This document shows, one piece after another, positions 657 through 28,516 of a stretch of DNA of 29,088 bases. Every line of letters begins with the position of its first letter. Positions within the stretch are counted from its first letter, which is position 1. Position numbers and translations under genes: made by a program. The notes beneath the pieces were generated by a model. The model was not told where the DNA came from. It did not search any database and worked only from the letters and a program-made list of their open reading frames with translations. This DNA comes from Saccoglossus kowalevskii (Eukaryota; Hemichordata; Enteropneusta; Harrimaniidae), in contig NW_003157229.1 in the NCBI RefSeq assembly GCF_000003605.2, positions 156,136-185,223 on the forward strand, given 5' to 3'.

Positions 657-875
657 TCATTTGACTTGCAAAGTTGTTTTAATACTCATAGCTGCTAATT
701 CAGCGAGTAGATATCTAAAAACATAAGGCACTGCTAACAGCTGTATGTGTTCTGCTGACTTGCACATCTGGCAATACCAGTGTCCTGATGAATTGACAGA
801 ACTCCCTTCCAAGAGTGCAGACTTCTTCTGTTGAATAATTCCTTGAAAACTACCACATTTGGTGCATAGCTGGGT
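657..875 (-). CDS. POLR1B: POLR1B exon 27: C-terminal zinc ribbon and stop
   Basis: Residues 1060-1131 plus the TGA stop at 657-659. Two CxxC pairs, Cys1063/Cys1066 (CTKC) and Cys1094/Cys1097 (CQMC), form the zinc ribbon typical of this subunit's clamp-proximal C-terminus. The tail [18 protein letters not shown] matches the invariant C-terminal helix of the family. The acceptor is a pyrimidine-rich TTTAATTCAG just above 875. Possible weak polyadenylation hexamers (ATTAAA on the minus strand) lie at 377-382 and 320-325; no AATAAA was found close by. Confidence 0.95.
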   Translation of the reverse strand, partial: TQLCTKCGSFQGIIQQKKSALLEGSSVNSSGHWYCQMCKSAEHIQLLAVPYVFRYLLAELAAMSIKTTLQVK

Positions 876-3800
876 CTGAATTAAAGAGAAAGGCAAAGTG
901 ATAGAAATTGATAATTAATTATGTATTAATAATTTTGGTTAATTTATTAATTAATTAATTAAATACATTAATTTAAGTTATTTAAGTAATCAACCCCACA
1001 AATAGCAATGTTTGTTTCAATGTAGTCTCAAATTATTTCTAGTTCTTGCATCCTGTTTCTGTCTACAGTTTCTGGAATATATCAAATTTCCTGCAGCTCG
1101 GTGACAAAATATTTTCCTCAGATTAACACTAGAGGGCGTTTGTGGCAAGTAAGTATGTTTGTTGAAGTCAATGAAGTCACTTGGAATTGCATTATGTGAT
1201 TATTCATTCTTGATGTTCAAATAAAACAAATAAATAAATATTAGAGACAGACGTATTTATACAGCGTAACTGCAGTTGAAATTTCTTTTTTTAAAGGTAA
1301 TAGACTAAATAGTGATTCGCAACAAAACATTTAGCAAAGTAATGCAGTTGGAATTGAATTATCTGTAAATATTGTTAATTTTTAAATTTTTTTCAGACGC
1401 TGTACCACAAGTTTTATTTTAAAAATCTTGCAATCATGACAAATGCTATTGAAATAGGTGATTTTTGTTCAACTGTAAGATCTTGTATATTGTGTGAAGT
1501 CATTCACAAAACATCCGCCGCAAAAATTGAATGATTTGATTTTGAACTTGAATTTCAATTTTATATCTCAATGTTGATATGCAAATCTACCAGAAGGGAA
1601 TATGGCATTGAGTTATCCTAACTGTATCAAAATAAACAACATCAAATGTGTACAGAACATTATTAAATGTGGAAATACCCCAAAACACTTTTGCATTTGT
1701 TGAATCTTACACAATGTTTTGATGACACTATAACCTTTGTTCTGGTTTTGCGTATGATTTCATGTATAACACAGGATCTCACAGTTAAGGAAAAATGATC
1801 TATTGCATTTAAAATTCCTTGAAAACAAAAACTGTGTTTTGAAGCCGTGTTCACAAGCATTTCTATTAGAGTGTATTTCTAATTCAACTAATATGGTATC
1901 TCAGTGTATTTACTGTCATCGCCATATTGTTCCGAACACCAAGACAAAAACATTGCCAGCTTTTTTGCCGACTGGTTTGCTATGAATGTCAGGAAATTGT
2001 TACGCAATTGTAATAAGTTGAGTTAAACTAAAGTTATGGTAATAGGAGACGTCAAACTTATAAATAATGAGAGACATGTTGAATATACACAGGAAATGCA
2101 ATCGCCTTTCAATTTATTTCATCCAATCATATAAATTGCAATGAATCACAAAGTTTACCGTTGAGCTGTCAGAACAGTGGAATAGTCTATCCTGCAGTAG
2201 AAATGATGTACCATGTGAAAGCAATGCATCTCTTTCCATCTCACCAAACCTAATACCGCCAGCTCGCTTCCTGCCCTTCACAGGTTGGTGCGTTAGAATA
2301 TCAATGGGGCCTGTTGTACGAACCTATTAACAAAAGATTATATGAAATAAAATCATGAACCTAATCTGCCCACACACGGCTAAGATCCACTTCTGGAATG
2401 GTGGAAATGAGTGATTTTGAAGCATTTTTGGATTTAAAATGGCTTCCATTGAAGATACAGACAGACAAACGAAGGTCAATATATGAGTCCTAGGTGACTA
2501 AAACAGGAAGTGTGACGGAATCAGGTAAGCATCTCAGATTAAATGAAAATGATGAAGAAAGGATGAAGTCTGTATATATGCATGAACCAGCAAACAATGC
2601 AAATTACTACATTACGGGAAAAATAAACCCCCTAACTCACTTGAAATTTGTCCTCCACCATGTGTCTGAGCCTTTGGTAGTAAACAATGCCTACAAATAT
2701 ATCAGCTTCCAATTCTCTGCCATCAACACCACTGTACATGCGTTCATTGCCATAATAATTGTATCCAGCTGCAGTAATTGACCATGCAAATTGATAAAAA
2801 CATATTAAAGTTGAATTGTAAGGTACACTTACTCACTCACTCTTGGTGGTAGTAGTAAATATTCAAGTTCCTTGAAGTATAACACTATAACGAGCCATTC
2901 ATGAATTAAATAAATGAATGGTTTTCGGGTCTGATACTATGCAACCTCTACTCATGTTCACACACACTCAAAATTCACACACACCTACTTGGTGCATACA
3001 ATCATCAAAATGTAATTAGACTAAAACTGAATGACTTTTTCATGGCATTTAGCAAAGAGTATGTCAGATAATGCAGTTTGTACCATGGTAGTCCTGAATT
3101 AACCACATATATGTGTTAGTTCAAAAGCTGATTTGAAGTAAAATGGAACAAAGTAGCTAATACACCTACCATCCTAGATCATATTCAGCAGACACATGAA
3201 AATAGTGGATAGTGGCTGAAAACTCACCTTCTCGGAGCATTCTTCCAAAATAATCAATAGCAGGTCTGTCTTCAGAGAAAGTAAATGGCGTTGCATCATG
3301 ACTGAGGCCGTGTAAAGATCCTGATTTACCAGCCATGCTCTCTATCATCATACCTAAATAGTAATTAGTCATATAAAATTGTTAAAATTATAATGCATTT
3401 CAATTTGTTTGAATTTTTTACTTCTTACAGTACTGTATATTATTCCCTTAACATGGTTTTTACTATCCAGCACCCATTGTGATTATGGTTGTGTCAAGGA
3501 ACTTGGCCTTGTCGGCGTTGAATGTACCAAAGTCAAAACATACACAATATTCCAAGGAATGTTGCAATGTTCCAAGGAATGTTGAAATGTTCCAAGAAAT
3601 GTTGCAATGTTCCAAGGAATGTTGAAATGTTCCAAGAAATGTTGCAATGTTCCAAGGAATGTTGAAATGTTCCAAGAAATGTTGCAATGTTTCAATAATG
3701 TTGCAATGTTCCAAGGAATGTTGCAATGTTCTAAGAAATGTTGCAATGTTCCAAGAAATGTTGCAATGTTCCAAGAAATGTTGCAATGTTCCAAGAAATG

Positions 3801-6800
3801 TTGCAATGTTCCAAGGAAAATTCATAGTGATGATTTCAAGATGATTTTTCCACCCACTGTTACATAGGATCACCACTGAAAATCTGTCTGATAATTTAAA
3901 TGTAATGTGAGCCAGTGAATAATTTCAATATGTAAATTGAAAAGCTCAGGATAAACATTCCTTTATACGAAAAGTTCTGTTACTGACCTATTGTCATTCG
4001 TGATGGAAATCCATGAGGGTTGAATATAATATCAGGCGTCATTCCACTCTCAGAAAACGGCATATTTTCTACTGGCCACAGTTGACTACAAACACCTTTT
4101 TGGCCATGACGACTTGAAAATTTATCACCAATGGTAGGATTTCTCTGTAAAAAACAACAGTGGTGTGATATGTTTAATGAAATTGGAAATTAATCTAATT
4201 TAACATAAACGCAACATATCATTTATACATTGTGTAAGCCTATGATCACTGGCAGACAAATTGAAACAGTGTATTCTCAGTCTGAGTAATCAACCTGAAA
4301 TGTGTCAGTTTCAAAATAGAGGGACATTTTGTGAGACACAATTTTTTGTGAATTTTGTTAGTCTGTGAAAATTGCTAACATTTTATGGTAATGAAAATTT
4401 CTCTAATGACTTGACAACAAAAAGTGTTATTGAATTGTCAAAATTCCATCTTTGTGAATGCCATCAAAAACATTTCTAGCAGTGAAAATTAAACATTTGA
4501 CAGTATTTCCCACAAAGTATTCTGCATTATACCTTAAAATTAAAGTTGAGTAATACTTAAATTGGAGTAGTTCAGTGAAAAACGTAAAACAAATTCCATT
4601 ATAACCGAGACATGTTTTATGGTGACCAGCAACAGCTACACATAGTGCTAAAATGCTTCTTTACAAGCTGGTTTGACCCTTGACCTTATACTAACCTGAA
4701 TTCTGAGGGAGATATACACTTTTTGACATTCAGCAGTGCCTAAGTCATTACCACATAACTTGACATTGTCCACCACAGCTCTCTCATGGTGTTTAAATGA
4801 TAAAGTATTCGCCACGTTGGTTTCAACATTGATATATCTAGTGAAAACAGAAATCATAAGTTTGTTAAAGCACACTATTACAATATTACTATAACAATAT
4901 TTGTGAGACAAAGAAATTTCCTTTGCTGAATAATTCTTTATAATGATTTGACTTAGGAACCAGAATTTATATCATATTTCCGAATCTAAAATGGCCACCA
5001 TTTTGTCGTTTATTTGATTGGACATTTCACCCAGCAAAATAAGCTAACAAAGTTGACACAGCGAAGCTGTCCATATAACTGATTATCTGTCGTTGCCATC
5101 CGTCGTCAACTTTTTCTTCGAAAACGCAAGTCAGAATGTTTTCAAATTTGATATGCAAGTACCTTGGATGGTTCTTTCTCTATTTTTGGTGAATAAGTCA
5201 GATTGCTTTGATAATACATATATTGGTACTACATGTGATCTATCAGATTTGTTTATTTCGTGATGATATTTTTGTCATTTTTGGTAAAAAGTGATATTTT
5301 CGACTTCTTGTAAAAAACGTCAAGTCCGATTGCTTTGATATTGCATATATAGGGCACTATATGTGAACCTCTCTCAGATTTGTTCATTTTGTGATATCTT
5401 TAATTCTCTAATTTGTCAATGTTTTACTTTTTTGACTTCTTCTTGAAAACTATAAGCCTGAATGCTTTGATACTTGGTGTATATGTACCTTGGGTAGATC
5501 TCTCTCAGATTTGTTCATTTTGTAATGATATCTTCAATTCTCTAATTTTGATGAATACTTTTGTCATTTTTAGTAAAAAGCGATATTTTCGACTTCTTGT
5601 TAAAAACCACAAGTCTAATTGCTTTGATACTATACATATTGTTCATTTTCTAATATATCTTCTGTTCTTTATTGAAATGTGCATTGCTAACAGCGGAGCT
5701 ATCTCAGCCAACAGGCTGCTTGTTTTTAATTTTTTTTCTTCATATTTTATATTGTCAATACTTTACTCACACATAAACATGTGTGAATCTGTCTTCCAAA
5801 GCTAACGGTAATATCTGGTTTTTGGAAGGCAGGGCAGACTGTACTCTGATTTAAACTGCTGAGTAAACTTTTGGCTCCAAGAATCAAATCCATAACATCT
5901 ATGAACTGAGACGAACATCACTGTCTTATCGTTTGTTCAGTTAGTTTATCCTAAAAAGATGCCTGATGACTCATAATGTTCATACTCTATACTCCCTCAT
6001 CCTATTGGACAGCAGCAAGGTAGGACAAACCATTTAAGTGTGGGTGTGGTAGCATGAGATTAGGGAGCACTGACGACAAACATCTATGACCCACCCAGTA
6101 CAATCAATATCATTTCAATACGAACCCACACAACGGATCTCCTGGTTCAATAATAGCACCTATTGGTGGAAGACCATCCAAATCTAGATGCCCCTCTGTT
6201 CTTCTGTCATCAGGTAAACACCCTACAAACAAACAACCTTAAGTTTAGATCGCTTACAAGGAATTTAATGAGTAAATATTTTCAACAACTGTTTGTAGAA
6301 AGAAAATCATTTCTCCACAAATTCTAGCACTATTAAACACCTGTATTGGACTTTTAACATCAATTTTAAATTCGAACTGACCTAAAGTAATCTATGCATG
6401 GTCACATCAGGGATAAGTTCACTATTGAGTACACTGTAAACTATAGCACTTTATTTACTTTGCACTAGCATGTTACGTATGAATGGTAGAATAAAAAACA
6501 ATTAGATCTCACTCATTTTGTTATATTGCAACAAATAAAAAACATTTCAGTACTAAGTAGAAGTTAAGAAAATTATTAAAACCAAAAACACTATTATAAA
6601 TATAGTCAAGTTTATGATAAATATGAAATTGAAATATGTCTCACCAAACATTAACGATATTGACTTTCCCTTTTCACCACTTATTTTTTTCAAATCAATC
6701 ACTTCAGTTTTATAAATAGTACCATGGGCAAACCCTCTTTCATATGATGACTTGTTTAGAATCATGGCGTCTTCCATATCATAACCCTATAATACAAATA

Positions 6801-9800
6801 ACATTCATTTGAATACACCACTTAAGTTTATTATTACATCTGCTCATAGTTCTATTGAACATTTTTTCATAGAAGCGCAAAATCTTTTGTAAAGTACATG
6901 AAACCTGTGACTGCAATTCAATCAATAAATGCATAACATTGTAAATATTGTTTCCTGTCTGGTTGTCATGACAATCTGATGTATCGCAATGTGAAGAAAA
7001 AACACACACCAATCCTAACATTGCCACCCCCAGCATACACAATGGTTGAGTCCAAACAAGAAATATTACATACCGTATAAGAAATAACCGCCACGACAGC
7101 ATTGGTACCAAGTGGATAGTTATCAATATTATATGTATCGTATGAACATGGTCTAACTATTGGACTTTGCGGTGTCTGTAAACGATACAGTTTATTATCT
7201 GTTCTGTGTAGATATGTATGTACTGGTGTACCCATAGTCTGCTTACCCATCTGTATAAGAAAATGGAAAAAAAAAGAATATTAGCCATAATCCACCTTCA
7301 AACTGGTAATACATAAATATGCAAGGCCAACAAACATGATCTATGATTCTCTGCAATGCATCATGGGTAATGTATGTAGATGTACTTGTATACACGTTTG
7401 TAATTTAATTTAAATGATATAATTATTTGTTAATTTATCAATTGGCTACATGTCAAATAAAATAATAATTACACTTAGTTTATTTTTTTCAAATGGCAAT
7501 AACAATTCAAAAGGCAGGCAGGAAGCATATTGCCTTGGGTTCTGTATAGACAGACATTTGCTTTTTGAACTAACCTGACATTGGTACATGTTACGTGGGC
7601 TCTGGTTGAAATCAGAAAAGGGCGTTAAACTTGCCACTGCACTCAGCAAACCGCTTTCACTTAATTCAAGGTGGGTAGTCAACTGTAATAAAAAGTAATG
7701 CCACATCACTACAGTGAAATGAACATGCATGGTAAATCAAAAGCGTTTACCGTTTATTTATAAAAAAAAACATTTATAAACTCAAAATTTCCATTCACTA
7801 GAATGCTGTATATATATGTACCACTTGAGAGGAAAAATATTTGAATGTATTCCTAAAATCTGGTTAACATGCTCAGGATGTTGTGGTTTTGATTCCTTGA
7901 GTTGATTGTTCATTATATGATTAGGTTTTTATAACTGGTTCCCACAATGCACTTGCAATTAGCACCATAAACTAAAAATGTTAGGAATGATAGCAGGGAC
8001 ACAAAAAATAGTAAATAAAAAGACAAACTTCCACAATTTAATGAATGCAGCCCAATAGATAATTACAGCTTCTTGTTTTAATTTGCATCCACATTTTAAT
8101 AGGAAGTTACTGTAAAAGACTTCCATTAAATGAAAACAAAAGAATTACTTTTAAAATGGAACCATGGTAACACTCACCCCTTCATGCGCTTCAGATGCAG
8201 TAACAGCAATATTCATATAAACCTGTAGACAAGATGAATAACAATTAGTCATGTGACCAATAATCAATAACAATAACCAATCTTCTGTTAATGCCATAAG
8301 TCAATCAATCACCTTCAAACAAGACTACAATTTCAATAAATTAACTTTTCAAAATATTTCTGGGAACAGTAGTCTGAACGATGCACTAGTATTTTCATGT
8401 TTTTTGCGTTATTAAAAACAGCAACCAGAAAAGAGGAAATTACAAAGTCCTTGTATCTATGGCAACAAGTTTGGGTACAACCTTCTTTTAATTTATTTTT
8501 TATTTATTTGCTGGAACCTTTCATTAGACAAAATATCAAGAATTCTAAATTGTCTTCATCACTACAAGTTTGTCACGCCAATCCTAAAACAGCATGCATA
8601 TCATTTTATGTGGAATCCTGCATTCACAGTCGATAGACTCAACAGACACAGAAATACAAATATGCAAAATTCACCTTTAAGTAGATTTCATACCTGTTCA
8701 AACGTTCCAATCATCTCTGTTGTATTTGTGGCAAGATTGAGAACAGGTCGCATTAGCCTCGCAACTGATGAAAACAGATATAAACCGGGATACTGACTGC
8801 ATTTACCAGTCATAGGAACAAGTACAACCTCTAACATTTCAGGTACCTGTAATGAAATGGTCAGACACCAAGTTTTTTATTTTTTATTTTGAGGCCACTG
8901 CTTTTTCTTCACTGATATTGTGAAGCGTTAAAATATTGTGCAAGTAATTCAAGACTGTTCTGACATATATTCAATAGAGATATACTGGATCTAATCATTA
9001 TAAAGTGTGTAGTTTAATGGGTGTCATTAAGGGCCTGTTAAATACTGTATTCCATTAATATCAGGAGGTTATTATAAGACATATTTTACGACAATAACTG
9101 TAAAATAATTATACATACTCTATGTTCTTTTCTGACTTTCAGTATTCGTAACTTGTTACCCAGCTCACCAGCCATTTCCTTGTCAACTTTCCCAAGCACT
9201 CTGCCATCCAACAGGACATCATAGCATTCAGAAGGTTCACCCGGTGATGGGCCATCTGTTGGCGTCATGCCAAGATTACACAGTAGCCGAGACAAGTGAG
9301 ATACCTGAGGCTGATCATTTACAACCTAACCATGATGCAGAGACAAAACACTTCAGTTTCATTTTTAGAAGCTTTTAATTGTAAATTAACAATTTAGGAT
9401 AAATTTTAATCACTTTTACTCCATCCCAAATTATACATATGGTAATTTGAAATTATAAATCTAATATGGGAGGATATTTGTAAATGTATATCTGAAGATC
9501 TGATTTGAAATCACATAAATTATGAGATGATACCAACTCTCAAGACATATATGCATACATTTCTGTATTACTATTGCAAATGAGCAAGTTTGTCAAAGTG
9601 CTAGAAACTCATCTCAGGGTTTTGGTTTATATGTTCTAGTAATGATGGATGACCGATGATACTTGCACTGAATAAAATCCTCAACTCATATCACCATATA
9701 TGGATATCAAATTTACATAACCATTTTCTTATAGAGTTCAGCTAATGTTTGAGTTAGGACTTCGAGTTATAGGCCACACCCACTATTGAGTTATACTTTT

Positions 9801-12800
9801 TGACCTGAGCACATCTACTTTCGACCCAACCAAACCCACCTTTGACCTAACCACACCCACTTTTATCCTGTTTTTACCACAAACATTTTAATAACTCCAA
9901 GTTACAAAGTGAAGTTAACAAACTTTGAGTTACAAACTCAAAGATGCAAAAAGAGTGTTCATGAATGTCAGGTTACAATTTTGGTGCCCCCAAAACTGGA
10001 GTAAAGTGGGCATGGTCAGGTCAAGGGTTGGCCAAAACAGTACAACTTAAGAAGGGTAATGGCCTGTAACTTGAACTCCTAACTTTTAGTATAGCACAGC
10101 CTTTTTCCTTTGAATCTTTGATGACCTCAATGCAGATGATAGTGTATTGAGAAATACAACATTTAGAGTGATGCAGACTAGAATACATGTATAAGAGTAT
10201 GACACTAACCTGGCACAAAGCTGCCATATGATTGAGAAGACCACATGGTGCGCCATCAGGGGTATGCACAGGACACAAAAACCCTACATAACAAATGAGA
10301 ATACACAATATTTTCTAAACCAAATTACCGTCATACTGAATAAACCTAAGCATGCTATTTTAGACTACATATGTAATACAATAAACAAATTTGATGAAGA
10401 GGGAGGAGGCAAAAAGATTACCATGTGAATGAGGCAAGATAACTCTATGCTGTACAAACTTTATTATTAAATCAAGCAGGATTGAAGATTATATTTCATG
10501 TTCATCATTCTTTCTTTATTTTGGAATACCCAGAACAAAAACAAAATGGGATCACAGAATGATGTCAGAGCCAGAAGAGTCTGAAATTACATGAAAAATG
10601 ATCAAAATTTTTTTTTACACTTGTTTTTATGGTGAAATTATTTCTTCACATCTCAGAATTCTGCTTGATGACATGGGATAAAAAGTTGTACATTACGGTA
10701 CTATTGATAAAATCATATAAATTGACATATACTAGTAACTGGAAAACAAAACGTCCTACCAAAACATCACACCCAAAATGGCTATTAATTTGTTATCACA
10801 GATTCTATACTTCTGGACTGCTGTATGCAAGAAATGTGCCTTACCCCAAGCTTCAGGAAGAAGTCTGCGTACTGACGTGGTTCGCATTTCGGAGAAAAAT
10901 GCTCCTCTATGAATACAACGAAAATGAGACAAATATCTGACATAGTTCAGTTTGTCAGCTACCACAGTTAGACCAGTCGCCTGTGAATATAAGGTATTAC
11001 AATTCAATATAGAATAAATTACATGTATACATGATGTCAATAATTTGTACAGTTAAATTAAATCCAGTCAAGTGATAACATGTGAATCTTCAACTCTATC
11101 TCAATGGTATATTTGGTGCAGCAACTGTATTGAAACAATTATCACAATTTTTTGTATTACATAACAACAGATTTTGACATAATTATTAGGTCAGCGACTT
11201 TTTGTTTAATCCAGTACTTATAAATAACCATAATTTCCTTGAAAAAAAAATGTCTGAAAAAAAACAAACACAAACTGAAGTACATTCCCTAAGGCACTGT
11301 ACATGTCCAATAATAAATACAGGACTTAATCTGTAGGATAGAAATGATAAAGACAGAAACAAAGCCACAAACCTGCATGAGTCCAAGTCCAGTCTTCGAG
11401 TTCAGATTGCCTGTTTTGAGTAAATATTCCACAGCGTGGGATAAGTTTGTACGACCTACTGCAGAATTCAGAGTTGCTAGAAAAATATAAATCAGATAAG
11501 ATATATGCAGAGATTTTACAGATATTTACTGGTATAGAATTGTACTGCAACTTATATCACAATTTAAAATCATTGGATTCCACGAAGTATACAAACCACA
11601 ACTTACTTGAATTCAAGACAAAGCTTTGTCCTTTGACCTTGGCTTGTTTTTCAATTGAATATCTCACAGATACTAACCAATCCACCATTTTCTCCTGAAA
11701 AGGATCAAAAGATATATTTTTATATATTTGTTATATTCACAGTCAGTTACAAAAAAAATTTTAATAAAATGTTGTCTTAGTTATTTGTATGTTTATATTT
11801 GGGCTCCAAATCAATATTCAAACATGCTTAAAATGGATGTGTTTAAATTGAGAACAAAGTCAAACCATCTTGTTCATATTGAATGTCAACAATAAGAAAT
11901 ACTACCGGTAGATGTGTCACTGACAATGACCTATTTCAAAGTTTTGAATAATTAAGGTAGAAAGTTTACACGTCATTTTTGAGAAAATTTATCATAAATC
12001 ACATGACAGTGTTTAAGTGTTGATTTGGTGAAATCAAGAAGCTATTGTCCCATGGCATTCTTTTGTGTGTTACAGTGATGTTTTTTTGGGGAAACTTGTT
12101 CTAGTATTTTTTGAAAATTGCTATTTTCAGAACAATTCCATGAAACATAATGTTAAAGAAAAATGAAGTTTTTTGACCTTTTTCTAAAACCCACTGCAGA
12201 TTTTTGAAATGATTTTAGAACAACAATAAGTACCCCATCATTAACAATATCTAATTTTTGCTGCAAGGCTACAGGCTATATGGCATATCTCAGTCATAGG
12301 AACCTATGGTAAAATCATTTCGATACTGTCAAAATTGCAACTACATGTATCCACTAAATTATAGCCATCATTTTCTCCAAAATTAAGCTGGTGACCCCCA
12401 ACTATTTTTTAGTCAATATCCTTACATTGCCTTACAATTTATTGTAAAATATATAAATTTTGTGTATTTTCAATTATGAGTAGGCTTCTACCTTTATTAC
12501 ATATTTTCTACTTACCTTAAGATACATAAGATATAGGTGACCTCCCATTAACACTTCCTGGTTCATCGTACTATCTGCATTCTCGGCAGCACATTCACCA
12601 TTAGCAAACGCAAACAACTTACGCACCATGTATCTAGAAATCACAAAAAAAACCTTGAACTCAATAATAAAATATTTGAAAAAAAAGGTTTTTTTTTAAA
12701 GATTTCATAACTCGCGTTGAATTTATATCTGGTTTGGTTTGAAACTTGAAGTAAAAAGAAAACATTTATAAAAAAAATGAAAATGAATGCTTATTTAGAT

Positions 12801-15800
12801 ATGCCACTTACACTAGTGTGTTAAATTTATCCATGTTGTTTGTCAGATGAACACATATACACTGTTTTATCAAAAATTCACCATTCTGTCTGTCTGTGTA
12901 CCAGTCAGCGAGTCCTAACTTCACTCGGAACATCTCACCTAAATACTCAAGAATTTTTCGCTGTGATGTCAATCCTTGTGTCTGTATCTGGCGTAACATG
13001 TACGTGACGCACCTAATGAGATGATAATATATCAATAGAAGTTACTGACGTGAAATGTACATAAAAATGAAATAGACGGTACAGACTTAAATACATATTT
13101 AACACTTACCCTTTGTAGTAGGTATTTTTGTCTTTCCCTCTCATCAATTCATCATAAATAAACTGATCTGTGGTGTCCACCAATGCCTAAAATGTAGCGG
13201 AAAAAAATTAACATCACATTGTGTAACCATATTAAATAAGTGTCAATAATTTATGAAGTAAAATTTGTGTTTCACTCGATGTACATGTTACAAAGTACAT
13301 CAATCAACAGAATTCCTCACCACAGCTCCTCAAAAATACGTTTTAATGTCTCCATACTCTTGCAAAATCAGGGAAACTGGCAATGCTGTTCAGATAGTGC
13401 TGGTGGTTTAATGTCAAGTCATATTTGGCAACTTTCATAGTCATGCATATATCCTTCAACATCCACAGAAATTAAATTCATAGCGACCTCTTATGTACCG
13501 ATACCGTACAACCGACAACTCTGTTCCAGTGAGTTGTATAACTAATGTGTGAAAGATTTTTAATCATTGTTAAAAATGTGGCTCACTTCCCCAAAATTAT
13601 TACAGCGAAAAAAAACTGAAAATGTTTGTGTCATTTTTATCAGAGAAAATTGTTTTGTTTTCAATTAGATTCAAGTCCAACTGATCAACCAAAGAGGCAA
13701 TTTGCCACTGCCAGTACCAGTAAATCGGATTATGTTATTACCGAAAAAACTTCATGAGATGAGTGAACACTCTGTGGTTGATCTACCTGAGTGCAGTACA
13801 CTCATCTCATTTGTGCTACTACCACTAACCAGATATTATTAAATAGAACATGAAAGGTAACTGTTGACATTGTTATTTATACCAGTATACTATACAGACT
13901 TACTTTCAATATCAGCACCACTGGAACAAAGAATTGTTCTTTTGAGTAGGAGAAACACAGCATAGCAGTCCCATTGGTGAGATAATGTAGGATTATATTC
14001 TGAGAATGAAAAAAAACACAATTGTCACTCATGACAACAAATATTTTTGTGTACATGTAGTTGTGGATAAAGAAGAGGAATATGTCAACTCCATCAGTTG
14101 AGTTATCAGTTTATTTATATGCTGTTCACTCTGAATCATAAATTACCATTTTTATTGTTTGCATATTAAGCAATACCTGACTTTTTCTATCATGCAAATT
14201 TATGGAGATATACGGCCAATTAACTCAAAAGTGGTAGTGTAGTTGAAAAGTGAACTATTTTTGTTTTTGAATTGGGTGAACACCTATTTCGGACTCAATA
14301 GGAAAACCTGCTTTCCTTATCCAAGGTTAATCACCCTATACACTCATTTGAATCCATGAAAAATAGGCTTACCACGGCAGTCTGGTCTGGTTTAACGCAT
14401 CTCATTGACACACCATACTCGGTATACAGCTTGCCTCGGTTCTTCCAACTGCCTCTGTTAAGAGCCATGGGCTAGTTAAATAGAGTTAAAGGGTGAAACC
14501 GAATAAGTGTGTGGTTGTCATGGAAATTTTAAAGCACAAAGATGAAAAATATTTTTTGACAATTGGACACTCAAAATATGACAGCATGCTTCGTAATCAC
14601 ATACAGTATGATTTATTGCAGTTTACGAAAAATTTCTTTAATTATTTGCATCATCAAATTTTGTTCATAGTGTCATGGTAACGTATTTCTCAAAGTAAAC
14701 CCCAATATTATAAGAATATTATCTCAATATTGTATCTATATTGTCATTTTCTGTGTTATAAAATATTTGTCTGAGTATATCATCAAATCCACCATTTTGT
14801 TTACACCAGAAAAGAGAAACTCATGTAATAATCATTTCCTCAGAATGTTAGATTTGTAGCTTGCATAGTGCATAGGTGGGGATTATTCTTGGACTATTGT
14901 AGTGAATGTCGTGACCCAACTTTGAATGAATTTTAGAGTTGTTATGATATTCAAGAAGAGCACCGCATGCACTAGAAACCCGCTAATAGTTTACTTCACA
15001 CCATAAAGATGTAAATTAGAGAAAATAAACTCACAAAGTTTCGTCTTGGAAGTACAATCATTCGAATGACTTTTTCAATTCCATTGATAATAAAATATCC
15101 ACCCATCTCTTCCACTTCTTCATTTTTCTTAATCAGTTCCGATGGCGATAATTTATTCAAATTACAACTGTTTGACTGAAAGAGATTCAAAAGATAACAA
15201 AATGATAAAGCATCATTGAACTTAACGAGTTATCTCAGATACTTTTACTGTACCCTTTAATGTATTTCACTGTAAAACTGATGATGATTCTGAGCAATGA
15301 AGTGTGTATTTGTTTTTAGATGTGTCAATGAGCTATGTTATTCTATATACATGTACCACATAATTTGATATATACTTACCTTGACAAGTATTGGAACTTC
15401 CCCAAGTAGAATTTCCTTTATGGCTTTCACTTCATTATTCAATTTCCAGCAAAGATGGGCTCTGATTTTTGCTTTGTATGTTGTTCCACCCTGCCGACAC
15501 TGTGAAGAAAACACATATTTATGAGAACAACGTTAACATAGATGATAGCCACATGTATTATTACTTTCAAATGAGGTCAGGTGAAAATTTGCAAGAAGTA
15601 AATCCCAAACCATTCTATAATATGCAACTTCAGAATTTCAAAATAATTTTTTAACCATTGAATTATTTCATCGAGTTTGTTAAAATATTATTGCATACAA
15701 CTATAGTGGGCAGCAGTAAACACTGAAACTTTTTATTTTGTGATTGTGATGTTTTAAATTCTTGGGGCACCTAAACTAGTTTTTAAATTATGGATCATAG

Positions 15801-18403
15801 TTGTACGCAGTTTTCCCATTTTCAAATCCAAAATGGCCCCCAAAGTAGGAATTAACACGATAGAAAAAAAAACACAAAGTTAATGGAAACAATTCTTACT
15901 GCGAAGTCGATGTTGTAGTCATTTATTTGATAGAATCTTTCATTCAGCAAAATATCAGATTTGCAGAGCATTTTTAAAAGTTATAATAGCTGCAATTTAT
16001 TTTTAAAATTTGCAATGGGCATTATTTTATTATAACTCTTGCAATGCGAGTTACAGGGGAACTGCTCAATCCCATGGATTGCACCAAGTGCTCATGGGTA
16101 ATTAACTCCGCCTCTGACCACTAAGTAAATGAATGATTATTATGCTCGCTTACTCAAACTGTGATTGACAGGCATTTTGCATACATTAGCCGCCATTTTA
16201 AACTCATGATTTTTACTTGTCGCGGCATGTTTCGACCGAAAACATCGACATTTATACATCAAAAGCCCAACCAGATGAGTGTAATGACTAATCACTAGCG
16301 TACGTATTCATGCCCGGTAAAAATGTATCTGGAATCACAGCTTGATCTCTAAACATCGTAAATGGCACATTTCACGGAGCTCCTGCCACGTGAGCGACTG
16401 GGTTCAGATTAGCATACTAATTGCGGTGGCCATCTTGCCCCTATTTAAAGTATTGGTTCCCCTTTAACTATTCAGAGCAGTACACATGTAGCAGTCACTT
16501 ACCTCAGTGGGGTAGACTTTTAATGATAATGCATGTATGTTTCCTTGTGCTACGGTGGGAACTCCAATTGATGCGTCCTGAGATGAATAAAAGATGCAGA
16601 TTAAAATGCCAGCATGAAAATTTAATGACCCAATGACAGTTGAAAACAAAATAATGTACTTACTGTAAATGAAAGTGACACTTTTTCTCCACTTGGCAGT
16701 GCAAATTCTACCGGCTGCATATCTTGGATGGCTAAATTCAAACCTTCAGACAGCATGAAATTGAACGACTCAATATGAGGCTTCACAAGTTCTTGTAAAA
16801 CCTGAAACAGACATACATTGTTACCTTGTAATGAATCATTTACAGTTAACACCTTGTCAGGAATTACTATGGCTACCGGTACTCTCGATATTGTGTTGAA
16901 CCTTTGAAGCGCTCAGGATATTGTTACCAATTTTAAATAAATGTTTGTTATAAAGGTTAATAGACAGGTATCAAACAATAGACAGGTGAAAAATATGTTG
17001 ACGAGGATTTGATTAGTCTAAGTTCTTATAATAAATGATTTATAAATGCCTTTTAGTCACACACTTTAATTAATATTTAAATTACCATTTTATCACTACA
17101 TTAGACTACACCCCAATTTTCTTGGGCAATAGACCCCCCCCCCCTCTCAAAAAAAAACATGAATATGAATATTGAATAATAAAGAATCATAAAAAATCAT
17201 TTATAAAACATTAAGAAAAACGAAAAGTATAATAAAAAAGTAGACAAATAAATGCCAAAATTAAAATAAGCATGCTCTTACAGAACATTAGAAACAATCA
17301 AACACAATTTCGTCAACATGTCATATGATAAAAAATTCAGAATTCTAATGAGCACCAACTGCTATTCCAGTTGCCAAATTTATACAGAACAGCTTCAGTG
17401 TCAGACAACAATCCCTATCAATCCACAAGTGATTATTTTCCATAATTTAGTATTATCTGGTACTTGGTTACATTTTATCATCTTTTTATTTCCTTCTAGT
17501 TTGCAGTTTATGTAACTTAAATTTTTTTCTTTATCACGTTTTTGACACCTTACTGCTGTACTTTCTCAAGTCGGTGTGTTAATGAGTAAATAAATATTAT
17601 TATTATACATCTGTGACCGTGACATCATAAGTTACAGCAAGGCGCAATTTTGCGGTATTTTACGGGGTATTTTCATCCTACCATATTTGGAAATGCGAAT
17701 TCCAAATATGAAATTATTACATGCGTAAGGGACCTCTAATAATAAAAACAAACATGGCTGCCACCGGGGTTTGACAGGACTCCACACAATAAAGTTTGCT
17801 GATTCTGTTCTAAACTTTTTGGATTTCGGCATTCCCATGATGTATCATTAGGAAGAAAAGATGGATAATAATAATGTTATTACGAGGATACCACAAAGTA
17901 TGCACTCGGACAGTACGCCGCTGCGCAACGGTTGATTCTCCCGCATACTTTTAGGTATCCTCATAACATCCTCATATTATTATTACTATAACATCATGAT
18001 CCTATGTATTATTATTACAGTACGTATACCTCTAGAATATGTTTATTGTAATTTTAATGAATTTTAAAAATGTATACCTGCTCCTATCAATTTGTGCAAT
18101 TTTAAAATTTTGTCGATAAACCCCCAGTATCTGTGGTACCAGTATGTGCATTGTAAATACTGTTAAACACATGGCCCATGTTTCAGTAAACACGTGTACT
18201 GAGATCAGCTGCATGCTGTACACATACGTCTTTTGCCATGACACAACCATATCAGTTCATCTGATTTTCATCTTAAGTTGGGTCACGAAATAATGTCTTT
18301 AAATCGATAGCCATCTTTAATGAGCGCAACTCACCTTTGATTGAGATTTTGGAGGTTTTCCGTAGTTAGGTTCGGTCAGATGTCGAAATCCGGGAGCAGC
18401 CAT
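657..18403 (-). CDS. POLR1B: RNA polymerase I second-largest subunit (RPA2/RPA135), complete, 27 exons
   Basis: Catalytic-core subunit of nucleolar RNA polymerase I, which transcribes the 45S-type rRNA precursor. It pairs with POLR1A to form the active-site cleft. Exons from start to stop: 18403-18335, 16801-16664, 16577-16503, 15499-15380, 15175-15035, 14471-14373, 13999-13904, 13186-13110, 13012-12812, 12633-12516, 11694-11607, 11476-11373, 10980-10845, 10283-10210, 9325-9119, 8846-8694, 8222-8178, 7682-7575, 7250-7074, 6786-6645, 6222-6132, 4837-4696, 4144-3988, 3353-3228, 2768-2641, 2323-2159, 875-657. They sum to 3396 nt, or 1131 aa plus TGA, against about 1135 aa in vertebrates. Every intron is GT-AG and every junction keeps phase. 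Paralogues RPB2 and RPC2 were considered, but wording such as [15 protein letters not shown], the end [18 protein letters not shown] and the length fit the Pol I subunit. Exon edges are hand-called; the weakest is the donor after 6132. Confidence 0.97.
876..2158 (-). other. POLR1B last intron (1283 bp), no gene seen
   Basis: This intron separates exons 26 and 27. It is AT-rich and contains an ATTAATTAATTAA-like simple stretch at about 935-965 and an ACACTAGAGGGCG word near 1126. Short ORFs inside it have no coding character. Nothing else was recognised. Confidence 0.6.
2159..6222 (-). CDS. POLR1B: POLR1B exons 21-26: hybrid-binding domain and wall
   Basis: Residues 790-1059. Exon 21 includes [16 protein letters not shown] and is joined to exon 22 ([10 protein letters not shown]) through a weak donor, GTGTGG, after 6132. 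That choice restores phase 2 and rebuilds DPLYINV. Exon 23 (residues 868-920) carries [18 protein letters not shown], the invariant GDKF.SRHGQKG motif whose basic residues contact nucleic acid at the active site, then [19 protein letters not shown]. Exon 24 gives [16 protein letters not shown]. Exon 25 gives [14 protein letters not shown] and [17 protein letters not shown]. Exon 26 gives [17 protein letters not shown] and [10 protein letters not shown]. The intron upstream of exon 22 holds a transposable-element copy, and that upstream of exon 24 a minisatellite. Confidence 0.94.
3549..3819. repeat. 20-bp minisatellite in a POLR1B intron, with 40-bp higher-order period
   Basis: About 13.5 tandem copies of a 20-bp unit, GTTGCAATGTTCCAAGAAAT, lie in the intron between exons 23 and 24. 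In the left half (3561-3680) units alternate strictly between a GTTGCA...AAGGAAT form and a GTTGAA...AAGAAAT form, giving three perfect 40-bp higher-order periods. The right half (3700-3819) is nearly homogeneous. One 19-bp unit at 3681-3699 marks the switch. Open frames on both strands through this block are a by-product of the stop-free unit. Confidence 0.95.
5041..5735 (+). mobile_element. Short non-autonomous element, copy 1 (POLR1B intron)
   Basis: A ~690-bp element sharing long, nearly identical stretches with 27834-28516 in the same orientation. It is made of about four degenerate ~155-bp monomers. Recurring words are GACTTCTTGTTAAAAACC, ATTGCTTTGATA and CTCTCTCAGATTTGTTCATT. Its right end is ACAGCGGAGCT (5690-5700) followed by the small hairpin CAGCC-AACA-GGCTG (5705-5718). 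The left end (AGCTAAC..., near 5041) is more diverged than in copy 2. It sits in the intron between POLR1B exons 21 and 22. There is no transposase. The internal-tandem-repeat architecture recalls the pearl/HINE-type elements of bivalves, but that is an analogy. Confidence 0.75.
5768..5832. repeat. Hairpins just right of element copy 1
   Basis: CACACAT (5768-5774) pairs with ATGTGTG (5779-5785) across a 4-nt loop. CTGTCTTCCAAA (5789-5800) pairs, with one mismatch, with TTTGGAAGGCAG (5821-5832). They may be a remnant of another small element or chance pairing in AT-rich intron DNA. Confidence 0.4.
6645..9325 (-). CDS. POLR1B: POLR1B exons 15-20: external domains and start of the hybrid-binding domain
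   Basis: Residues 513-790. Exon 15 (residues 513-581) contains [13 protein letters not shown] and [18 protein letters not shown], the Pol I-type external domain. Exon 16 gives [19 protein letters not shown] and [10 protein letters not shown]. Exon 17 is a 15-codon micro-exon (8222-8178). Exons 18-19 join to make [17 protein letters not shown] followed by [14 protein letters not shown] and [16 protein letters not shown]. Exon 20 begins [19 protein letters not shown] (residues 743-761). Its Glu-Asp pair (about residues 747-748) corresponds to the conserved ED near metal B in the second-largest subunits. All splice sites are GT-AG and the reading frame is unbroken. Confidence 0.95.
9753..10083. 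mobile_element. 331-bp foldback (MITE-like) element in a POLR1B intron
   Basis: The outer 23 bp at 9753-9775 and 10061-10083 are inverted repeats with 20 of 23 matches (GTTAGGACTTCGAGTTATAG against the complement of the right end). Imperfect complementarity then continues inward almost throughout. The CACACCCACTTTTATCC arm near 9852 mirrors GGAGTAAAGTGGGCATGG near 9998. A perfect central hairpin, CTTTGAGT-TACAA-ACTCAAAG, lies at 9923-9943. The left arm also carries two or three ~22-bp tandem units with the core GACC(T/C)AACCA.ACCCAC. No ORF is present. The element lies between exons 14 and 15. Target-site duplication was not resolved. Confidence 0.7.
10210..12633 (-). CDS. POLR1B: POLR1B exons 10-14: fork region and conserved proline-rich motif
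   Basis: Residues 339-512. Exon 10 contains [17 protein letters not shown]. Exon 12 contains [15 protein letters not shown], the fork-loop approach, in which family members have the same TGNL..KTGLG wording. Exon 13 (residues 443-488) carries [18 protein letters not shown] and [14 protein letters not shown]. Exon 14 continues [19 protein letters not shown], the near-invariant (R)[19 protein letters not shown] block that lines the active centre in multisubunit RNA polymerases. The Trp-Gly codon pair is split by intron 13: exon 13 ends TGG G and exon 14 resumes GG TTT. Donor GTTTGT after exon 12 and donor GTTAGT after exon 14 are less common but acceptable. Confidence 0.95.
11950..12498. repeat. 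Possible element bounded by 13-bp inverted repeats
   Basis: AATTAAGGTAGAA at 11950-11962 is matched in inverse by TTCTACCTTTATT at 12486-12498 (12 of 13). The 549 bp between them fill most of the intron between exons 10 and 11 and contain no gene. The inner sequence shows no clear further complementarity, so this may be chance. The right terminus lies only 17 bp from the exon 10 donor. Confidence 0.25.
12812..18403 (-). CDS. POLR1B: POLR1B exons 1-9: N-terminal protrusion and lobe
   Basis: Residues 1-339 of POLR1B. The start ATG at 18403-18401 opens [18 protein letters not shown], and exon 1 is only 23 codons. Exons 2-3 carry the family stretch [18 protein letters not shown] (about residues 28-45). 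Exon 4 (residues 95-134) ends in EVPILVK. Exon 5 holds [18 protein letters not shown] and PRRNF (about residues 157-181), the protrusion motif shared by all eukaryotic second-largest subunits. Exon 6 gives YGVSMRCV. Exons 8-9 form the lobe, with [16 protein letters not shown] and [14 protein letters not shown]. Exons 1-7 are whole-codon exons; exon 8 ends in phase 2, and exon 9 joins it to rebuild the Gly-Cys-Val of KGCVTYML. Intron 1 (16802-18334) is the largest of the gene. Confidence 0.95.
13754..13810. repeat. 12-bp perfect hairpin in a POLR1B intron
   Basis: ATGAGATGAGTG (13754-13765) is perfectly complementary to CACTCATCTCAT (13799-13810). The 33-nt loop adds a further inner CACTC/GAGTG pairing. 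It could be a degenerate foldback element. It lies in the 717-bp intron between exons 7 and 8, with no gene around it. Confidence 0.5.
16020..16460. repeat. Compositionally distinct block in a POLR1B intron, probable repeat
   Basis: Within the 1003-bp intron between exons 3 and 4, about 430 bp are visibly richer in G+C and CpG (for example TCGCGGCATGTTTCGACCG near 16220 and CCACGTGAGCGACTGGG near 16388) than the flanking intron. No ORF, tRNA-like promoter boxes or terminal repeats could be defined. An inserted dispersed repeat is the likeliest reading, by composition only. Confidence 0.25.
17615..17965. repeat. Two large hairpins in POLR1B intron 1
   Basis: CATATTTGGAA (17682-17692) pairs perfectly with TTCCAAATATG (17700-17710) across 7 nt. 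GAGGATACCACAAAGTATGC (17884-17903) pairs with GCATACTTTTAGGTATCCTC (17943-17962), 18 of 20, and after a 3-nt offset the pairing continues into an outer ATGTTAT/ATAACAT and AATAATAAT/ATTATTATT. The 39-nt loop is CpG-rich. This stretch has a different base composition from the rest of intron 1 and may be one decayed foldback element. Confidence 0.5.
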
Positions 18404-18501: not shown

Positions 18502-18780
18502 ATGTTCACTCGATCCACAATCCATAACATATCTAGCACTAAAAATATACAGTCCACCACTAGAAACTGTGCTTCGGGAGGACATCACAGGCCATTTTAT
18601 ACAGAAACGAAAGCCTTGTGCAAGTTAGTTTATGAGGGCGCACGTACCTCGAATGAGCTCCATTTCTTTGAAACAGCAATTCAAGAATTTCAAAATAACT
18701 ACTACAATTTTCCTGAAAGATGCAGATGTGACCAAATTTTATTGCTAAAATACAAACTACCATTAACCAAATTATATTAA
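18502..18780 (+). CDS. Hypothetical 92-aa protein with mitochondrial-presequence-like N-terminus, divergent from POLR1B
   Basis: Not recognised. The intronless frame opens at ATG 18502 and ends at TAA 18778-18780. The first ~34 residues (from MFTRSTIHNISSTKN) contain Arg, Lys, Ser and Thr but no Asp or Glu, as in mitochondrial targeting sequences. The rest (YTETKALCKLVYEGARTSNE, then a likely amphipathic FFETAIQEFQNNYYNF and the end KYKLPLTKLY) looks like a small folded helical domain with three Cys. Base composition is less AT-biased than its flanks and the frame is open further upstream without an ATG, both favouring coding. A 13-A run overlaps the stop codon; an AATAAA lies at 19056-19061. 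It may be a real small mitochondrial protein or a chance ORF; a larger spliced gene is also possible. Confidence 0.5.
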   Translation: MFTRSTIHNISSTKNIQSTTRNCASGGHHRPFYTETKALCKLVYEGARTSNELHFFETAIQEFQNNYYNFPERCRCDQILLLKYKLPLTKLY

Positions 18781-18838
18781 AAAAAAAAAAATTTCACTGT
18801 TGAGTTCATAACTTCATCAGTAACTATTTATGGTAGTG

Positions 18839-18989
18839 TAGTGTAATTATAGTAATTTAGCACATATGCATGTACATTTGATAAATACCTGGACTGCTCA
18901 GTCACAAGTCCAAGGTTTGCACAAATATTACAATAACACCATCTTGCATCCACATTCATATATAAATTCAGTTTTTGTCAGACTCCAAT
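18839..18989. repeat. Duplicated segment, copy A (unexpanded)
   Basis: 151 bp from TAGTGTAATTATAGTAATTT to GTCAGACTCCAAT that recur at 21667-21820 in the same orientation. I count about five substitutions and one 3-nt indel, roughly 96% identity. Weaker similarity continues to about 19015. Immediately left of this copy is GGTAGTGTAGTG, two units of the pentanucleotide that is massively expanded next to copy B. It lies 3' of the small plus-strand ORF. Confidence 0.9.
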
Positions 18990-19704
18990 ATAGACAGAAA
19001 GGTCATTTTACTACCTCAACTTTTGAGGCTTTAACACAATAAGACAATATATGTAAATAAAACATTCACATCCTTCATTGTAGTAATAAATGCCAAAAAA
19101 TATGATAATAATTTGTTGACAAATTACACACGTTGTAATTTCTCTTTTATAAATAGACAATGGAATAACATTGGAACATATTATTCAAATGACATTGAGC
19201 ACTTTGCTCAGTGATTGGCTGGATGGATTCAACTGTGATTGATGTATGCAGTGTATTTATAAAAATCAATGGAATGGGTTTGTGGTCATGATAACACATG
19301 GAATACATGGACAGAATTCCAAATATTATGACATACATATTTTATTGATACTTTGTGAATAAGGTAATAGGTAGTAAAGATGGCATCCATAGTACATACT
19401 TTGCTGTAATACAAACAAACCACTCAGGAAGTGGTTAAAACTTAAACTTAAAAGTTATAGTGGTCTGATGAAAAGTTGTTGGACCAACTTTAATAGCCAG
19501 TGCTGTTCAAATCAATATAAGCAATTTACAGTATATGTACTTAAATGCAAAACTGTAAATAATGCTGTGTTTCCTTCACACTGACGCACAGTAATACTGA
19601 TACTTTAGTGCTGATTCTTTCACAGTGATAGTTTCAGTTGTATTAAGGATATAGTAGAGGTTTTCAGGAGGTAAAATTCGCATTAATTATTTTCAAAATT
19701 TGCA
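18990..19704. other. Intergenic, no gene seen
   Basis: AT-rich DNA between duplicate copy A and the pseudogene-like frame. The only item noted is an AATAAA on the plus strand at 19056-19061, which could serve the small ORF ending at 18780. Short ORFs here have no coding character. Confidence 0.5.
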
Positions 19705-21160: not shown

Positions 21161-22027
21161 TTATAGAAGTCCACCAAATTTTGATTCCATGAAATGAATT
21201 CCTTTCTGGAATGAAAGAAGAAACATTTGTTAGTTCATAAATTACAATTTCGAAATTGATGACAGTAGTGTAGTGTAGTGTAGTGTAGTGTAGTGTAGCG
21301 TAGCGTAGCGTAGCGTAGTGTAGCGTAGCGTAGCGTAGTGTAGGGTAGCATAGTGTAGTGTAGTGTAACGTAGCATAGTGTAGTGTAGTGTAGTGTAGCA
21401 TAGTGTAGTGTAGTGTAGTGTAGTGTAGTGTAGTGTAGTGTAGTGTAACGTAGCATAGTGTAGTGTAGCGTAGCATAGTGTAGTGTAGTGTAACGTAACA
21501 TAGTGTAGTGTAGCGCAGCGTAGCGTAGCGTAGCGTAGCGTAGCGTAGCGTAGCGTAGTGTAGCGCAGCGTAGAGCAGCGCAGAGCAGTGTAGCATAGTA
21601 GTGTAGAGTAGTGTAGTGTAGCGAAGCAAAGTGCAGCATAGCGTAGAGCAGCGCAGTGCAGTATTTTAGTGTAATTATAGTAATTTAGCACATATGCATG
21701 TACATTTTATAAATAATACCTGGACTGCTCGGTCACAAGTCCAAGGTTTGCACAGATATTACAATAACACCATCTCGCATCCACATTCATATATAAATTC
21801 AGTTTTTGTCAGACTCCAATCATCATTGAAAGAAATGTCATAGTACTAACCTCAAACTGCTTCTGTTTTTCAGTTTCTTTTGCTAGATTCATATTTTTCT
21901 TAAATTCTTTCCGGATATAATTTTTATAATAGTCTTTGTCAGTGTACTTCAGTTGATCTCCCCCTCGTAGAAGTCTCCTGTACAAAGTAAGCACTGCCAA
22001 CCGGGACCACTGCATATTTGCTGGCAT
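21161..22027 (-). CDS. MIEF1-MP: LYR-motif microprotein, homologue of the MIEF1 upstream-ORF product (altMIEF1/L0R8F8), two exons
   Basis: In mammals this ~70-aa mitochondrial-matrix LYR protein is made from the upstream ORF of MIEF1 mRNA. It binds mitochondrial acyl-carrier protein and, with MALSU1, sits on assembling large mitoribosomal subunits. Exon 1 is 22027-21851 and exon 2 is 21205-21161 (TAA at 21163-21161). The sequence begins MQWSRLAVLTLYRRLLRGG, then QLKYTDKDYYKNYIRKEFKKN; the LYR is at residues 11-13 counted from the ATG at 22015, followed by the downstream Phe38 expected of the family. Exon 2 completes it with KGIHFMESKFGGLL, parallel to the vertebrate ending. The donor is GTTAGT and the acceptor TTCCAG. 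Two in-frame ATGs are possible: 22027 (73 aa) or 22015 (69 aa, best fit to the vertebrate length). An in-frame TAG lies just upstream. No MIEF1 ORF follows within the window. Confidence 0.88.
21265..21664. repeat. ~80-copy pentanucleotide array in the LYR-gene intron
   Basis: About 400 bp of GTAGT-type pentamers (plus strand) with variants GTAGC, GTAAC and GTAGA, filling most of the 645-bp intron. Pure GTAGT blocks dominate the left and centre; GTAGC and GCAGC forms dominate the right (21510-21660). All reading frames are open on the minus strand because the unit lacks a stop codon, which produces spurious Tyr/Thr/Leu-rich ORFs. The array ends precisely where duplicate copy B begins. Confidence 0.97.
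21667..21820. repeat. Duplicated segment, copy B (LYR-gene intron)
   Basis: 154-bp partner of 18839-18989 in direct orientation. It lies between the pentanucleotide array and the exon 1 donor of the LYR gene. Weaker similarity to the other copy continues through the donor (to about 21855), so the copied unit is intron sequence that reaches but does not include the exon body. Confidence 0.9.
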
Positions 22028-22185
22028 TGTAGTAAAGACCAACTAAAGGCCCATGGGTCTTGATTGAAACCACTATATTCTCCTGACTGCAGTAACTGAG
22101 AAAAAAAAATAGATACAAAGTACTAATAATTAAGCACAGTTCATAAGTAAAAGCTTTGAAGTCAGGAAGCAGGGTCTTACTTGAC
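22028..22185 (-). other. Probable 5' UTR of the LYR gene with a splice acceptor and possible upstream exon
   Basis: A strong pyrimidine tract ending CTCAG places a likely 3' splice site with the exon starting at 22095. A donor-like CAA|GTAAGA lies about 80 bp further upstream (22177-22182). This suggests an untranslated first exon, separated by a very short intron or lying farther away. A 3-codon ATG-GGC-CTT-TAG micro-ORF precedes the main start codons. Confidence 0.4.
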
Positions 22186-27833: not shown

Positions 27834-28516
27834 AGCTCCGCTGTCGACTTTGTCGAGCGGAGCTTGTCATATGAGTGATTGTCCGTCGTCGTCTGTGTCA
27901 ATGTTTTACTTTTTTGACTTCTTCTTGAAAATTACAAGCCTGAATGCTTTGATACTTGGTGTATATGTACCTTGGGTAGACCTCTCTCAGATTTGTTCAT
28001 TTTGTAATGATATCTTCAATTCTCTAATTTTGATGAATACTTTTGTCATTTTTAGTAAAAAGTGATATTTTCGACTTCTTGTTAAAAACCGCAAGTCCAA
28101 TTGCTTTGATATTACATATATAGGTACTACATGTGGCCCTCTCTCAGATTTGTTCATTTTGTAATGATATCTTCAATTCTCTAATTTTGGTGAATATTTT
28201 TGTCATTTTTGGTAAAAAGTGATATTTTTGACTTCTTGTTAAAAAACCGCAAGTCTGATTGCTTTTATATTACATATATAGGTACTACATGTGGACCTCT
28301 TTCAGATTTGTTAATTTCGTGGTGATATCTTCAATTATCTAATTTTGATGATTATTTTTGGTGAAAAGTGATATTTTTGAATTCTTGTTGAAAACAGCAA
28401 GTCCTGTTGCTTTGATACTATACATATTGTTCTAATATTTTCTAATATCTTCTGTTCTTTAATTGCAATGTGCATTGCTAACAGCGGAGCTATCTCAGCC
28501 GACAGGCTGCTTGTTT
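27834..28516 (+). mobile_element. Short non-autonomous element, copy 2 (CCDC177 intron 5)
   Basis: Same family and orientation as 5041-5735, better preserved. Terminal inverted repeats AGCTCCGCTGT (27834-27844) and ACAGCGGAGCT (28481-28491). The left end folds by itself: GCTCCGCT, then CGAC-TTT-GTCG, then AGCGGAGC (27835-27863). Beyond the right repeat lies CAGCC-GACA-GGCTG (28496-28509); its stem is conserved in copy 1 while the loop differs. The inside is about four ~155-bp tandem monomers beginning near 27910, 28072, 28227 and 28376. No transposase. The shared 130-aa-class ORFs in both copies only reflect stop-poor repeat sequence. Confidence 0.8.

Follow-up and report, generated by a model that had tools for sequence, protein, structure and literature searches.

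A free-standing gene for a likely orthologue of the MIEF1 microprotein in the hemichordate Saccoglossus kowalevskii

MIEF1-MP (also L0R8F8, altMIEF1 or MIURF) is well known as a functional microprotein whose ORF lies concealed in a 5′ leader. The human ORF is described as lying in exon 2 of MIEF1, within the 5′ leader (PMC5703645, PMC6283296). In human mitochondria the microprotein is reported to sit, together with MALSU1 and mtACP, on a late precursor of the large ribosomal subunit; MALSU1 belongs to the anti-association RsfS family (PMC8316566, PMC8208988). A matching mt-Rsfs–L0R8F8 block is described in kinetoplastids, where L0R8F8 belongs to an ACP block that sits on the large subunit during maturation and is stated to keep the subunits from associating (PMC8998825). 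Another LYR protein, LYRM4/ISD11, acts in Fe-S cluster assembly according to PMC11293456.

Published datings of the microprotein differ. MIEF1-MP is listed in PMC11293456 as one of 12 LYRM subfamilies, all 12 of which are traced there by inference to the last eukaryotic common ancestor; elsewhere it is stated to have ‘evolved during vertebrate evolution’ (PMC10032668) and to be conserved in vertebrates (PMC5703645). MIEF1 itself is reported as vertebrate-specific, invertebrates being said to lack it or to have yielded none so far (PMC3578726, PMC7300174), and the MiDs as restricted to chordates (PMC5765209). Given a MIEF1-MP of such antiquity and a MIEF1 confined to vertebrates or chordates, a late pairing of the two is already implied in print by what these sources state. 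MIURF–MIEF1 was also among the bicistronic transcripts retrieved in PMC13303939, by a pipeline that ended with 14 human transcripts; under the model proposed there (‘bipartite origin, bicistronic transcription’) both proteins predate their joining in most cases. Among the papers listed in literature searches (two of which showed 10 of 807 and 10 of 39 hits) we noticed no description of a stand-alone animal gene for MIEF1-MP; such data may be contained in the figures or datasets of PMC13303939 or in supplementary tables to PMC11293456.

We analysed a stretch of 29 088 nt from S. kowalevskii (hereafter the window), in which a preliminary description had noted a free-standing two-exon gene for this microprotein at 21161–22027. 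The parts of the gene are as follows.

22028..22095, minus strand: 5′ leader of the coding exon, with a strong 3′ splice site just upstream of 22095
21851..22027, minus strand: coding exon 1, 59 codons, LYR motif within; the product is a MIEF1-MP/L0R8F8-like LYR protein
21206..21850, minus strand: intron, 645 bp, GT..AG, phase 0
21161..21205, minus strand: coding exon 2, 14 codons, then TAA as the last codon

In the window sequence exon 1 is opened by the ATG at 22027 (minus strand), which has an A at −3 and is preceded by an in-frame TAG ending 15 nt before it. The joined exons encode a LYR protein of 73 aa; use of an inner ATG at 22015 (residue 5) would give 69 aa instead. Thus, the coordinates noted earlier were exact, the gene does have a stop and an intron of its own, and the proposed product length of 69–73 aa is borne out by the two ATGs.

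The acceptor side of the 645-bp intron carries a branch-point-like CTAAC and a pyrimidine tract before the AG. When all 2927 AG sites of both strands were ranked in phase 0 against the C terminus of the mouse protein, exon 2 came first, with a score of 45 vs 15 for the runner-up. In searches against PDB sequences exon 2 added 20 bits to the match with the mouse protein (72.3 for the joined protein, 52.0 for exon 1 alone), 14 bits to that with the human protein (67.8 and 53.6) and 8–12 bits to those with three L0R8F8-type proteins. This gain of the joined protein over exon 1 supports the splice independently.

A strong 3′ splice site with no partner, consisting of a T-rich tract and CTCAG, is situated 68 nt upstream of the ATG, near 22095 on the minus strand. 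The pattern describing it occurs at four sites on the minus strand of the window and at none on the plus strand, the pattern having been composed after the site at 22095 was seen. A non-coding 5′ first exon upstream of 22095, or a trans-splice acceptor at this place, is possible. Hence the designation ‘two-exon gene’ holds for the coding part but perhaps not for the transcript, which may have an additional non-coding 5′ exon.

By its sequence, the protein is a member of the LYR-motif (Complex1_LYR) superfamily: the joined protein scored above the cut-off of Complex1_LYR (PF05347; 43.2 bits vs 24.8, E-value 3.8e-11), and it carries both the LYR motif and the downstream phenylalanine that is a hallmark of the superfamily. 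Among other Pfam models, PF13233 also scored above its cut-off (31.4 bits vs 22.3), while a LYRM2-like model remained under its own; a search of NCBIfam returned no family. The best PDB sequence match was the mouse MIEF1 upstream-ORF protein (E-value 1.6e-19, 72.3 bits), followed by its human counterpart (4.1e-18, 67.8 bits); the chain that we take to be the mouse protein is titled ‘Predicted gene, 55359’. Next came three chains named L0R8F8 or Complex1-LYR-like (E-values from 4.8e-7 to 1.6e-6) and then, weakly, LYRM4 (E-value 0.055, 17 bits, query residues 8–57 only).

It could be argued that the protein belongs to some other LYRM family and resembles MIEF1-MP through the shared LYR fold alone. 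LYRM queries often cross-recognise several subfamilies, as noted in PMC11293456, and a three-row profile built from the window, mouse and human proteins did match LYRM4 at ~1e-5. With this profile the order MIEF1-MP, L0R8F8-type, LYRM4 was kept, although, as the profile contains the mouse and human sequences, only the order of the remaining families is informative. We attach hardly any probability to this alternative: the protein is identical to mouse MIEF1-MP at 37 of 68 positions with no gap, in an alignment that includes the last 14 residues, mouse MIEF1-MP gathers 72 bits vs 17 for LYRM4, and the LYRM2-like model stays under its cut-off. Within the LYRMs that have a PDB chain and the Pfam LYR models, to which the ranking applies, no other family scored higher than MIEF1-MP. 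Assignment to the MIEF1-MP subfamily is thus supported by the best full-length match in this set.

The claim that the product aligns over almost its whole length with the vertebrate microprotein was warranted; identity with the human protein is 34/67, also gap-free. Among the 67 columns holding letters of all three proteins (window, mouse and human) 33 are invariant, and L15, Y16, R17 and F42 are shared by the three. The likeness to human and mouse MIEF1-MP extends to length, gap-free alignment, the LYR motif and a C-terminal KG..F...K.G. A structure predicted for exon 1 alone from the single sequence was one long helix (residues 9–56; mean pLDDT 73.9, pTM 0.37) and was uninformative.

Similarity to more distant relatives is narrower. 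The PDB entries 6yxy and 7am2 (L0R8F8) and 7aoi (Complex1-LYR-like chain) are, as we assume, kinetoplastid. The kinetoplastid proteins are homologous to the window protein over the LYR core and the C terminus; the match, which is much weaker, begins only at residue 31–66 of the chain, indicating a longer N-terminal part. With LYRM4/ISD11 the core of the LYR superfamily is what the window protein has in common.

The arrangement of the gene differs from that in vertebrates. In Saccoglossus the microprotein has a gene of its own, in which codons 59 and 60 are separated by a phase-0 intron; since human altMIEF1 is described as lying within exon 2 of MIEF1, the intron does set the two arrangements apart. 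Vertebrates may have lost an ancestral intron, e.g. when a spliced copy was captured, or the intron may have been gained in this lineage. The intron contains two repeats.

21265..21621, strand not assigned: GTAGT pentanucleotide array inside the intron
21661..21855, strand not assigned: intronic stretch shared with 18833–19019 at 90% across 195 columns and reaching up to the splice donor of exon 1

The core of the latter repeat is 95–97% identical between its two copies, the only ones in the window, which are 2.8 kb apart. The likeness reaches the splice donor with a score of 30, which none of 1000 single-base shuffles attained, the region having been picked after it was seen. Possibly an interspersed repeat has invaded the intron, or the intron was born from one, as an introner. 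We also considered that 18833–19019 could be a second, duplicated copy of the gene and rejected this: likeness to exon 1 upstream of it was at chance level (137 of 1000 shuffles were as good), and that on the acceptor side was close to it (88 of 1000).

Downstream of the gene, on the same strand, we observed exons coding for the second-largest subunit of an RNA polymerase.

660..16912, minus strand: RPA2/POLR1B gene, many short exon pieces

Rpb2 domains were matched by five of the seven pieces scanned (four above cut-off), and three pieces, compared with PDB, had RNA polymerase I RPA2 (POLR1B) as the best match. The first recognised RPA2 exon lies within 16912–16628 (minus strand), ~4.2 kb from the stop at 21161. 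Between the stop of the LYR gene and the RPA2 exons we found no MIEF1-like sequence. From the stop down to 17635, nine ORFs of the minus strand were scanned (seven of at least 50 aa between 18469 and 21118, two of at least 60 aa further down), and none had a Pfam match at an E-value of 1 or better. It had been proposed that no MIEF1 body follows on the minus strand for 2.4 kb before the next gene. The first half of this statement stands, as none was seen all the way to RPA2. The second half does not: the ‘next gene’ was apparently a plus-strand ORF at 18502–18777 with no Pfam match, and the next minus-strand gene supported by homology is POLR1B/RPA2. This plus-strand ORF has 92 aa, an A-run right after its stop, and no Pfam match at an E-value of 1 or better. 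In the other direction, a gene lies on the plus strand from 23760 on; we assume it to be CCDC177-like, and no Pfam model exceeded its cut-off with any of three ORFs scanned there. The sequence flanking the window is N throughout.

As the LYR gene and POLR1B follow one another on the minus strand, one could speculate that the ORF is a 5′ cistron after all, in a bicistronic or operon-like mRNA shared with POLR1B/RPA2 rather than with MIEF1; the unpaired 3′ splice site in the leader is of the kind that trans-splicing could give. We regard this as improbable. The first recognised RPA2 exon (16912) lies about 4.2 kb beyond the stop at 21161, and four kinds of polyadenylation-like hexamer occur 22 times in all from 21165, where the stop codon is overlapped, to 17044, although words of this length arise easily by chance. 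The evidence supports the reading that the gene has, as it appears from its surroundings in the window, no link to MIEF1.

We searched the whole 572-Mb assembly (4830 contigs) as well. The 73-aa protein had a single match, its own locus. The Pfam model MID51-like_C, which we took from its name as a mark of MIEF1/MIEF2, had no match in the genome; since none of the 14 control genomes was matched either, the absence of MIEF1 is not proven by this search. The Mab-21 domain was found at 11 places, none on the 626-kb contig that carries the window, so the genome search was able to detect this superfamily. Nine of these places were scanned with Pfam (two with inner stops were excluded): all nine were Mab-21 and none matched MID51-like_C at an E-value of 0.1. 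Chains of MID51 are present in the PDB; for two of the 11 places compared with it, the best matches were MB21D2 and cGAS-like receptor 1, with no MID51 chain among the matches listed. Several Mab-21 copies are found on contigs C4195, C1214 and C4173 (L005, L010, L012 and L014, of which L010 and L014 are the two with inner stops); judged by eye, L010/L012 and L005/L014 appear to be near-duplicates.

These observations bear on the history of the pairing. The preliminary description offered two readings: that the microprotein was an ordinary gene first and its coupling to MIEF1 is secondary, or that the pairing was lost in this lineage. The former fits the evidence; the latter is disfavoured, as MIEF1 was not detected and is reported for vertebrates or chordates only. 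For a pair ancestral to animals and broken up in this lineage, both MIEF1 and the pairing would have to be older than the lineage. The examination of a single genome leaves some room for that, but MIEF1 is reported as vertebrate-specific (PMC3578726, PMC7300174) or chordate-only (PMC5765209), MID51-like_C is without a match in the genome (with the above reservation on controls), and neither the nine scanned Mab-21 places nor the two compared with PDB pointed to a MID51-type protein. We consider an ancestral pair very improbable. The coupling to MIEF1 in vertebrates is probably secondary, as the published work already implied, and we infer that the free-standing state is ancestral. A more specific scenario, in which the intron-bearing free gene is the ancestral animal state, the vertebrate leader ORF, situated in a single MIEF1 exon, is a retroposed spliced copy captured beside a newly arisen MIEF1, and vertebrates subsequently lost the original locus, is conceivable but on balance doubtful.

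What the protein would do can be proposed by analogy. Since the LYR motif is kept along with the remaining conserved core and the human and kinetoplastid relatives are known, we infer the same role for the Saccoglossus protein. The orthologue would use its LYR motif to bind acylated mitochondrial ACP; together with MALSU1 (RsfS-type) it would dock onto the large subunit of the mitoribosome while this is immature, and the docked module would block early joining with the small subunit. The gene is probably transcribed from a promoter of its own, perhaps with a non-coding first exon; expression, mitochondrial localisation and partners are predictions. It counts against this proposal that a search for RsfS (the MALSU1 family) in the genome gave no match at an E-value of 0.001, although 10 of the 14 control genomes were matched; as the search was made exon by exon and the ten named controls are bacteria, a split and diverged gene could escape it.

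Taking the evidence together, we characterize the locus, with high confidence, as a stand-alone MIEF1-MP orthologue, the sole one detected in the genome, with a predicted mitochondrial role in mitoribosome assembly and untied to MIEF1. An orthologue existing as an ordinary gene outside the MIEF1 context argues against an origin of the microprotein from the MIEF1 leader. It also hints that there may be no functional need for the two to be paired. The kinetoplastid L0R8F8 proteins, given the reported range of MIEF1, are presumably not encoded in a MIEF1 leader either. Like them, the locus weighs against the vertebrate dating given in PMC10032668, and this is the main use of so ordinary an orthologue. 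It also adds one well-resolved case to the pattern proposed for bicistronic vertebrate genes in PMC13303939.

Elsewhere in the window we saw tandem arrays at 3545–3815 and 27911–28427, with units of 20 bp and 157 bp, respectively. An ORF at the latter array resembles, by eye, an ORF at 5404–5802.
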